This document shows, piece by piece, positions 5,036-8,364 of a DNA stretch of 64,000 nt (the first letter of the stretch is position 1; the number at the start of each line of letters is the position of its first letter). Position numbers and translations under genes: made by a program. The notes beneath the pieces are model-generated. The model worked only from the letters and a program-made list of their open reading frames with translations, had not been told where the DNA came from and made no database searches. Source of the stretch: Synaphobranchus kaupii (taxonomy: Eukaryota > Chordata > Actinopteri > Anguilliformes > Synaphobranchidae). The stretch is taken from the NCBI GenBank assembly GCA_029718625.1, contig CM056379.1, forward strand, positions 65,127,626-65,191,625. The letters are read 5' to 3'.

Positions 5036-5242
5036 TGGGTCAATGACATGACGTGATTTTTTTGTGTCCGAATTCATTAGTTTCCTAAAAACAATAATAA
5101 AAAAAACATGTTATATATCAAATTGCACTACGATATCTCCTTTATGAGAAACCCTTCTCATTTTATTGAAATTCAATTTATTTTTTTGAGTTTTGGTGTT
5201 CTAAAGTCCCAAAATGTCAGGTGGTGCGACCGTCCGAACATA

Positions 5243-6415
5243 CAGTTGAAGTCGGAAGTTTACTTACACTTAGGTTGAAGTCATTAAAACTCATTTTTAA
5301 CCACTCCACAGATTTCATGTTAGCAAACTATAGTGTTGGCAAGTCAGTTAGGACATCTACTTTGTGCATGACACAAGTAATTTTTCCAACAATTGTTTAC
5401 AGACAGATTATTTCACTTTTAATTCGCTATATCACAATTCCAGTGGGTCAGAAGTTTACATACACTAAGATGACTGTGCCTTTAAATCTTTAATATTTGG
5501 TCGCATATCCTTTGCATGCCATGACTTCCTGATTTCTGTGACCCAACAACATCAGAAGACTCTTGATATGTTATTTTCTGGTACTCTTACAAGCGATACT
5601 ATAACGTCTCTGCATTTGAATGGATCTTTATGGGAATTGGGGGGTGGGAGTAGATTTAGCTGTAAATTATGCTGGAACAGTGTGGAATACATGATTGGTA
5701 AAAATGGCTCTAAGTCATCAAGGGTCTGAGGTATCAAACAAGCCTCAAACCATCACTCTGCTGCCAGATATGCAGTAGATATGGATGGATCACTTTAAGG
5801 GTTGTTTCTCCTGACAAATTTTCCTATTTATGGAAAAATAAGTCAGGAGAAGAAACCCTTCAAGTTATCCATCCATGTCTACTGTATTTCTGGCAGCAGA
5901 GTGACGATTTAAGGCTTGTTTGATACGTCAGACCCTTGATGACTTTTAGCCATTTAGCCAACCATGTGTTTCCATACTGTTCCAGCATAATTTACAGCTA
6001 AATCTAGTCCCCCCCCCCCAATTCCCATAGAGATTCATTCAAATGCAGAGACGTTATAGTATCGCTTGTAGGAGTACCAGAAAATAAGACATCAAGAGTC
6101 TTTTGATGTTGTTGGGTCACAGACATCAGGAAGTCATGGCATGCAAAGGATATGCGACCAAATATAAAAAATTTAAAGGCACAGTCAACTTAGCGTATGT
6201 AAACTTCTGACCCACTGGAATTGTGATATAGTGAATTAAAAGTGAAATAATCTGTCTGTAAACAATTGTTGGAAAAATTACTTGTGTCATGCACAAAGTA
6301 GATGTCCTAACTGACTTGCCAACACTATAGTTTGCTAACATGAAATCTGTGGAGTGGTTAACAATTCGTTTTTATGATTTCAACCTAAGTGTATGTAAAC
6401 TTCCGACTTCAACTG
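5243..6415 (+). mobile_element. Tc1/mariner foldback element with Sleeping-Beauty-like ends
   Basis: The element begins CAGTTGAAGTCGGAAGTTTA and ends with its inverse, flanked by TA at 5,241-5,242 and 6,416-6,417. The inverted repeats run about 250 bp on each side and contain the GACATCTACTTTGTGCATGAC direct-repeat region typical of salmonid and other fish Tc1 elements. The inner parts (about 5,495-5,815 and 5,850-6,160) are also inverse copies of each other, so the whole element is one long palindrome. No transposase frame exists. The second copy of the host element has the uninterrupted site at about 61,306, proving the ends and the TA duplication. Confidence 0.95.
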
Positions 6416-7216
6416 TACATGCAGAGAACAAAACTGCAATAAAAAGGTAAATTTTCTCAATAAAATTCCTAATCAAATAGTTTGGCATGATTTTATGTTA
6501 GATTGCTTATAAATGACGGAAAGTAGTTTAACAGTCCTATTTCAAAACTATTCTATTACTTAAAAAACCTTTGTCCGAGAAATTGACTTCTCCAAATGTC
6601 AGGGGGGGGCGACCGACATAAAAACATCATTTTATGTACTGTGCCTTCAAGAAAACGATGCAACAGGGTGTGACATCACACAGAAGACTCAACAGGACCC
6701 CTGTCATGCAGTAACAAGGTTAGTAACTCTCCCACAAATAATACATAATTTGACGTTTTTCAGTAATGGTGAGGTTGGTTCAACTTACCACGTCAGGTGG
6801 TATGACCCCTGGAAAACTATGAAAATTAGTTTTTATTCAGAAAATGTGTATTTGATTGAAAAGATATATGTATAACCTTGAGTTCAAGGACAAAAATGTA
6901 TATAGGTGTCCAAGTTAATTCCTGTTAGATTTGAATTGAGTTTGAAAAGTCAGGTGGTGCGACCAATATGTCAGGTGGCGCGACTAGAATTACAGTTAAA
7001 CGAATTGAAAAAAGTGATGTTAATTAATGTGTTATTAACGATTTTAAAGATATTAAATACATTTTCTTAAATATATACATCTTTCTGTATGATATTAAGT
7101 TGTTTAAAGGTGAAAAAGTCCTACTCTTCAAGAATATAGGACTATATAACCAAAATTTATACACAAAGTTGCATATTGTACCTTTTAAGTTTATATTTTT
7201 CCATTCATTTTTGTAG

Positions 7217-7314
7217 ATGCCATTATCAAGCAAAGAAAAAACAGCATGGCATAGAGATATTTTAAAAAATGATCCAGTTGCAAGGGCAGAGTACCTTGCC
7301 AAAAGAAAAGCAAG
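7217..7314 (+). CDS. Small exon of an unrecognised transposon protein
   Basis: An acceptor-like TTTTTGTAG directly precedes an ATG, and a donor-like AAG/GTATTG follows 98 bases later. The exon encodes about 32 residues starting MPLSSKEKTAWH and containing DPVARAEYLAKRKA, a basic helical pattern of the kind EK-x-R-D-x-L-K-x-D-P-x-A-E-Y-L-x-K-R. Similar N-termini occur, from general knowledge, in large uncharacterised proteins of fish transposons. The second copy has the same start at 61,925 but is broken by a deletion soon after. No further exon is visible in either copy, so the gene is truncated. Confidence 0.45.
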
Positions 7315-8364
7315 GTATTGTGTTCATTGTGTATATCTGTATATTTCACTATGGTTTCAGTTTTATTTTTAAAGCATTGATCAAATGTTGTCATTACCAT
7401 TGTAGCAGTATTGTTTTAAATGTTGAATGTGCAGTATTGTTTTGAATGCTGACCTGAATGAAATGTAGTCTTCATTATTGAAATGTGTTCCTTGAGACTT
7501 TATATTTCAGTTTCAGTTATATTTTTTAAGCATTGATTAAATGTTATCTTAATGACATTACCAGTGTTGCTGGCCTGAATGAAATGTAATTGTATGATTA
7601 AGTTCCAGTATAAAATGTTCAGGTTTCAAATAAAAGCCAAATGAAACCAGAGTAAAATTCATTTACATATCCTTCTTTTTATTTTGTGAATATCAATCGT
7701 TATTGAGCACAATATCAGGTGGCGCGACTGGTCATGGTCAGGTGGTGTGACCAGCAAATTTACATTTAAATGTACCATTCCCATTGCAGTCTGCAAAATT
7801 AAATCAGAAATATAACTGAAAATCTTTAAATAATGTATACAAATAATTTTTACTGTTAGAATTTTTTTGTCTTTCTCTCTATGGAAAATAAGGTGTTTGA
7901 AAACAAAAAGAAGTGGCCGTTTCTATAAATGGAATAAAACTGCCATAAATAAATAAATTAAAGTGGAATTTACCATGTGATGTGTATTTTACACACTACA
8001 ATGATTCATATTTAAAGGTTTTCAGTAGTGGTAAATACATTAAAAGTGTATTATTCAAAATTCATATATGGTCGCGCCACCTGACATTTATATCACCTTA
8101 AAAGCTATGAAACAAATATAAATACACAGGATACATTCTTGTGGAATTAAGAATGTATTTAAAATCCATTTTGGTCAGTATTTTTCTTTTTTCATTTTGA
8201 AAACCTTATTTGTCATTGACCCACATATAGCCTATAGGCTATAATAAAGTATAGGCTAATAACCGAAATAGCTATTCCACCATATTCAGCTTAATCATAG
8301 GCTACTCGTTTTAGCCTAATATATTTTTGACATAGAATTAATCTGTCCTCAATGTGAAGCTTAA

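Follow-up and report, generated by a model that had tools for sequence, protein, structure and literature searches.

The window analysed here, 64,000 nucleotides of Synaphobranchus kaupii DNA (assembly GCA_029718625.1, contig CM056379.1, forward-strand positions 65,127,626 to 65,191,625), holds two copies of one transposon in which a 16-bp motif recurs as a dispersed array. Each copy is a non-autonomous derivative, formed by deletion, of a cut-and-paste DNA transposon and is bounded by terminal inverted repeats (TIRs) and target-site duplications (TSDs); the subject of this report is that array and the transposase that may read it. In window coordinates, the features are as follows.

5037..8222, plus strand, non-autonomous DNA transposon, copy 1; both TIRs located, about 2.0 kb without a nested Tc1-like element
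5033..5036, unstranded, left TSD of copy 1, ATAT, one mismatch to its partner ACAT
5037..5048, plus, left TIR of copy 1, 12 bp, GGGTCAATGACA
5216..5231, plus, motif site 1, copy 1, GTCAGGTGGTGCGACC
6598..6614, plus, degenerate motif site with one extra base, copy 1, GTCAGGGGGGGGCGACC, at consensus place 384
6792..6807, plus, motif site, copy 1, TATGACC variant, GTCAGGTGGTATGACC
6949..6964, plus, first site of the 5' pair, copy 1, 21 bp spacing
6970..6985, plus, second site of the 5' pair, copy 1
7217..7315, plus, remnant of the first coding exon of a transposase, 33 codons (MPLSSKEKTAWHRD...KAR)
7714..7729, plus, first site of the 3' pair, copy 1, 23 bp spacing
7737..7752, plus, second site of the 3' pair, copy 1
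8070..8085, minus, reversed terminal motif site, copy 1
8211..8222, minus, right TIR of copy 1, TGTCATTGACCC
8223..8226, unstranded, right TSD of copy 1, ACAT
61102..63997, plus, copy 2 of the same element; TIRs at 61102-61113 and 63986-63997
61282..61297, plus, motif site 1, copy 2
61511..61526, plus, motif site, TATGACC variant, copy 2
61668..61683, plus, first site of the 5' pair, copy 2
61689..61704, plus, second site of the 5' pair, copy 2
62387..62402, plus, first site of the 3' pair, copy 2
62410..62425, plus, second site of the 3' pair, copy 2
63805..63820, minus, reversed terminal motif site, copy 2

Copies and motif sites of the window element

A first-pass annotation made from the letters alone had placed copy 1 at 5036..8223, which is right to about one base. 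The two copies are 94-98% identical in their main aligned blocks, and copy 2 is flanked by GTAT on the left and by GTA, cut by the window end, on the right. Of the 21 copies having both ends, 18 have an exact 4-bp TSD, or 20 when a single mismatch is allowed, and flank repeats of any other length from 2 to 10 bp are exact in at most two of these copies each; the TSDs are AT-rich, as in ATAT, AAAT and TTAT. Copy 1 is interrupted at 5243-6415 by the nested Tc1-like element, which is flanked by TA and ends in CAGTTGAAGTCGGAAGTTTAC, so that the host element measures only about 2 kb. The nested element is itself a foldback form that largely matches its own reverse complement, at 92% across some 1180 bp. 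Copy 2 carries a solo-LTR-like (long terminal repeat) insertion at 62658-63715 (TGTTACGACC...CATCACA) with a 5-bp duplication, TGATG.

The motif is real: at up to three mismatches the window holds 14 matches, compared with a mean of 0.51 and a maximum of 4 in 100 shuffles, and all 14 lie within the two elements, spanning 5216-8085 in copy 1 and 61282-63820 in copy 2. Of the eight sites first reported in copy 1, seven (six plus, one minus) stand at this threshold, and the eighth, the degenerate GTCAGGGGGGGGCGACC, is missing from copy 2, where six plus-strand sites and one minus-strand site persist, as had been noted. Nine-letter words occurring at least four times in the consensus, low-complexity words excluded, all belong to the motif, which disposes of a simple tandem repeat as its source. 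In the 1.5 Gb genome examined, teleost-like by its nearest homologues, the exact motif occurs 1034 times (518 and 516 by strand), as against 0 and 1 for the backwards pattern. The consensus of 1957 bp was built by a reference-based procedure from 47 sequences, and its places after about 205 read about 2 bp too small, two bases having been dropped at the nested-Tc1 junction.

Transposases and sister families

The exon remnant, which has an acceptor-like TTTTTGTAG just before it and a donor-like GTATTG just after it, resembles the N-terminus of two fish homologues, P0001 and P0004, and is cut after about 22 codons in copy 2. The exon has 149 matches in the genome at E ≤ 1, and it was through this 33-codon remnant that relatives coding for transposases of about 720-760 amino acids were found; 65 matches to P0004 were scored, several having long open frames. 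Three of the genes, whose open frames run to 722-765 codons, are located as follows.

C22:5091139-5092872, transposase gene L062
C1:57433754-57435538, transposase gene L064
C8:53711708-53713597, transposase gene L065

Second copies that are near-identical over 3.5-4.2 kb (L062/L063 98.4%, L064/L066 99.4%) suggest recent activity. Two copies of the window family, L009 and L010, were rejected as long autonomous copies; by eye, their interiors are nested Gypsy-type and mariner/IS630-type elements.

Homologues of the transposase occur in fish, insects, spiders and molluscs. In a Pfam search of the exon, four transposase pieces and five homologues, only a peptidase in P0063 exceeded the curated cut-offs, and no Pfam family, the rve integrase domain of Ginger elements included, reached its curated cut-off in P0004, P0010, P0033 or P0062. 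The PDB searched by sequence returned five weak matches, all to the helical N-terminal part and none a transposase, and Foldseek alone gave no structure match at E ≤ 0.001. A second-look structure aligner found an integrase-like core in the predicted transposase fold, and the predicted core has an RNase H-like catalytic fold, as in DDE/D transposases. Acidic residues are conserved at D422 (126/128), D503 (111/116), D545 (109/111) and E536 (104/113), and the third putative catalytic acid may be either D545 or E536.

Motifs were searched in twelve loci taken from the P0004 matches (L060-L071) and three fetched later (L075-L077). L060 (family F040), L075 and the exon-found F043 grouped with the window motif, and the partial loci L061, L070 and L071 gave no repeated motif fitting the pattern. 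Seven other families of the transposase in the same genome carry motifs of their own, 14-17 bp long. Those of F062, F064, F065, F069 and F076 came from an unguided search for repeated words, while those of F068 and F077, two of the eight families, were found via TGTC sites in the expected layout. Each line below gives a family's own motif, its own-motif matches at up to three mismatches, the 5' spacing and the distance to the next site, the distance from the last forward 3' site to the reversed site, and the sites from the left end, so far as these were read.

Window family: 7 matches; 157 then 21 bp; 334 bp; sites at about 179, 384 (degenerate), 578, 735, 756
F062 (with L063): TGTCCACCCTGTTAC; 10 matches; 156 then 15 bp; 341 bp; sites at 391, 583, 739, 754
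F064 (with L066): TGTCAACTCTGTTAC; 10 matches, one 3-mismatch match probably chance; 156 then 15 bp; 339 bp; sites at 390, 583, 739, 754
F065 (with L067): TGTCAACTGTGTTAC; 6 matches, two 3-mismatch matches probably chance; 339 bp
F068: TGTCACTGGTGTTAC, three sites; 3 matches; 363 bp
F069: TGTCACAACCGAAA; 9 matches, one 3-mismatch match probably chance; 156 then 15 bp; 342 bp
F076: TGTCCTTCCTGGGTAAC; 7 matches; 158 then 21 bp; 370 bp; sites at 176, 382, 573, 731, 752
F077: TGTCATTCAGGGTAAC, two sites; 2 matches; 339 bp

Shuffle means for own-motif matches were 0.00-0.70, with maxima of 0-3 in 40 shuffles, a comparison that is partly circular since the motifs were defined on the same sequences. 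At two mismatches the cross table of motifs and families is near-diagonal; the off-diagonal entries are mutual matches among F062, F064 and F065, one F077-motif match in F076 and one F069-motif match in F043. The transposases of these families are only 36-66% identical, and identity is moderately correlated with motif distance (Spearman -0.45 over 36 non-independent pairs). A TGTC start is near-constant among the motifs and an AC ending is found in seven of the eight families. Of the seven families with an end seen, five have the element tip GGGTCA (F064 has GGGTTG, F069 GGGCCT), and TSDs were read as AAAC in F062, GTAT in F064, TTCT in F076 and, with one mismatch, CAAT/AAAT in F069.

These sister motifs bear directly on the proposal that the motif recruits a host factor for expression or insulation rather than transposition, either via CAGGTG, which is an E-box, as the first-pass annotation suggested, or, in the case of CTCF, via CAGGTGGCGC, which fits the commonly cited CTCF core. 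Five of the eight copy 1 sites do lie upstream of the coding exon; however, the CAGGTG core is absent from the sister-family motifs, and TGTCCACCCTGTTAC and TGTCCTTCCTGGGTAAC have neither core at about the same places. Moreover, the conserved stretch of 16-17 bp is longer than an E-box, the exact motif outnumbers its control by 1034 to 1, and the eight motif loci among the matches listed (four distinct copies) all lie in elements with a TIR, which makes a host factor very unlikely.

The layout is shared to a degree that the letters are not. In all eight families (two of them found using the layout) the distance from the last forward 3' site to the reversed site is 334-370 bp, and two sites lie 156-158 bp apart in all five families with a readable 5' part, the upstream F076 site of this spacing being a one-base-shorter variant read by eye; F065, F068 and F077 have no readable 5' array. 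Measured from the left end, common places lie near 180, 385, 580, 735 and 755 bp, and measured from the right end they lie at 487-587 and 153-209 bp; the degenerate window site at 384 agrees with sites of F062 (391), F064 (390) and F076 (382). Among 100,000 random placements, those equalling the window places within 6 bp numbered 458 for F062, 5 for F064 and 0 for F076, and within 12 bp 269, 92 and 17, respectively. In F069 the spacing is kept and the array lies about 390 bp further from the apparent left end. It had been claimed that only the last site is reversed, which holds for the window family, where no reversed site follows the 5' pair, but not for F062, F064, F069 and F076, in which an extra reversed site follows that pair, 25-49 bp beyond its second member. 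The letters change together across the sites of a family, and the geometry stays.

Short derivatives point to the same two arrays. In F062, five loci retain exact sites from each array, separated by about 1.3-1.4 kb where the full copy has 3.5 kb. For F076, the first 100 of 138 places included 15 loci with 0.69-1.13 kb (13 of them 1.08-1.13 kb) from the 731-type site to the terminal reversed site, a distance of 3.7 kb in the full copy and one further locus; these spacings were read by hand from coordinates. Derivatives of three families (window, F062 and F076) have thus lost much of the interior and kept sites of both arrays. This bears on the alternative that the element's protein binds the sites to regulate its own promoter or RNA and not for transposition. 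Several sites do stand upstream of the start codon, and TNPA of En/Spm, in the portion of the source available, binds subterminal repeats and both regulates and promotes excision (PMC2613891). However, sites also stand downstream of the gene, with the terminal reversed site, and the derivatives that keep both arrays are non-coding; autoregulation alone is therefore unlikely.

Drift of the motif and the role of the array

The array probably represents family-specific recognition sites for the element's own transposase, the window copies being dead members of a Sola2-like, cut-and-paste family. Transposase-binding sites had been suggested from the window alone; the family comparison supports the suggestion well, with binding itself a step inferred from sequence, and the worry that the sites reach far inward is answered by related elements that place their sites alike with other letters. 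We propose that a conserved catalytic core would act at the ends, while a separate DNA-binding part of the transposase, probably oligomeric via a long predicted helix, would read the array by binding several 14-17 bp sites in the outer 0.8 kb or so on the left and 0.6 kb or so on the right. Only own-family ends would thereby be assembled and cut, and mobilisation would need both arrays, so that short derivatives would stay at about 2 kb.

Several observations weigh against recognition sites. The motif had been said to be kept while its neighbours drift, and slower evolution across genome copies had been named as the deciding test; within the family this went against the idea, non-CpG divergence from the consensus in 23 copies not picked by motif being 2.17% (40/1844) in motifs and 2.12% (764/36107) elsewhere. 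Between the two window copies, 5 of 112 motif bases differ (4.5%, hand count), compared with 2-6% in long aligned stretches. Internal deletions do not avoid the sites, since random placement is equally good in 3933 of 5000 trials; the L015 copy keeps only the outermost (outer two) sites, and F040 keeps just two of four 5' sites. The within-family test is a weak one, since copies that are dead accumulate changes neutrally once inserted, and for the same reason the null results for drift and for deletion avoidance are expected under either view. An earlier test on 47 sequences leaned slightly towards slower drift, with non-CpG divergence of 1.96% in motifs, 2.27% in flanks and 2.37% elsewhere; it was set aside because many of its copies had been found by motif. 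Among diverged relatives, drift slower than the surroundings holds against F043, where 56 of 64 site bases are the same and 3 of 2000 random windows reach this, and fails against F040, with 43 of 64 and 1104 of 2000, respectively.

The neutral look of within-family divergence, together with paired sites 15-23 bp apart that could come from duplication, would also suit a functionless by-product, arising as a short unit was duplicated or converted locally inside the element. Yet no longer repeated unit joins the sites beyond the motif, the eight families are alike in layout and unlike in letters, and the TATGACC variant, which holds a single position in the window family and the aligned position in F040, argues against homogenisation; such an origin is barely credible.

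If the sites are recognition sites for the transposase, the array may further be an exchangeable address on a fixed chassis, in which places, order and orientation are kept and the letters are replaced at every site that can be read in a family, a suggestion that we offer tentatively. Were it true, co-resident families would remain orthogonal, each ridding itself of the others' non-autonomous parasites, and F064 and F065 would represent the change at its smallest step, as the four readable F065 sites all have the same base changed relative to the F064 motif, at position 9. How the sequence recognised by a DNA-binding protein can change when a whole set of sites has to change with it is a question for gene regulation as well as for transposon evolution, and eight related families with a shared geometry in one genome make it testable with matched transposase-array pairs. 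Reading of the array would explain the length of about 2 kb of the non-autonomous elements and would offer orthogonal transposon systems.

Elsewhere in the window, an exon at 60851-61016 (GDLCRICQ...HDCLKRWIQAKV) lies upstream of copy 2; by eye we take it to encode a RING-CH (MARCH-type) domain, in which case copy 2 would sit 85 bp into the next intron. Two UnaL2 long interspersed nuclear element (LINE) 3' elements (Rfam RF00436) lie at 26321-26375 (minus) and 38761-38814 (plus).

Comparison with known transposon systems

A Tc1/mariner (SB-like) assignment was rejected for the host element, which has 4-bp TSDs, the TA duplication and Tc1-type TIRs belonging only to the nested 5243-6415. Sola2 elements, in the available part of their description, have short TIRs (12-13 bp, or 21 bp), AT-rich 4-bp TSDs and a single large transposase (PMC3627910), and the window element is similar in its 12-bp TIR, AT-rich 4-bp TSDs and transposase of about 760 amino acids; it differs in its dispersed motif array, which that part of the description does not mention for Sola2 (PMC3627910). 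The homology searches with the transposase gave no match named Sola2, and the resemblance is one of TIR and TSD to a published description. Neither the motif nor a dispersed array in Sola-type elements was found described in the literature searched, which was available partly as passages.

In design, the proposed division of labour, with tips kept and array letters changing by family, would parallel those of CACTA elements and Hermes. In CACTA (En/Spm) elements, as far as the accessible text of the source goes, the TIR is conserved, whereas the subterminal repeats and the protein that binds them diverge together (PMC2613891). The window element is similar in its family-specific repeated subterminal motifs and conserved TIR, a likeness of design and not of membership. 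Unlike the CACTA element of that paper, with its CACTA TIRs and 3-bp duplication (PMC2613891), it has GGGTCA termini and a 4-bp TSD; and whereas that element has a separate DNA-binding product, one transposase gene is seen here and the places of the sites are held across families. In Hermes (hAT), BED domains are described, in the portion of the source at hand, as reading repeats inside the ends in a rigid, asymmetric pattern (PMC10368747), and the window element likewise has repeats inside its TIRs in a fixed, asymmetric pattern; in contrast to the short AAGT-type motif near the tips of Hermes, the sites here are 14-17 bp long and reach 0.8 kb inward.
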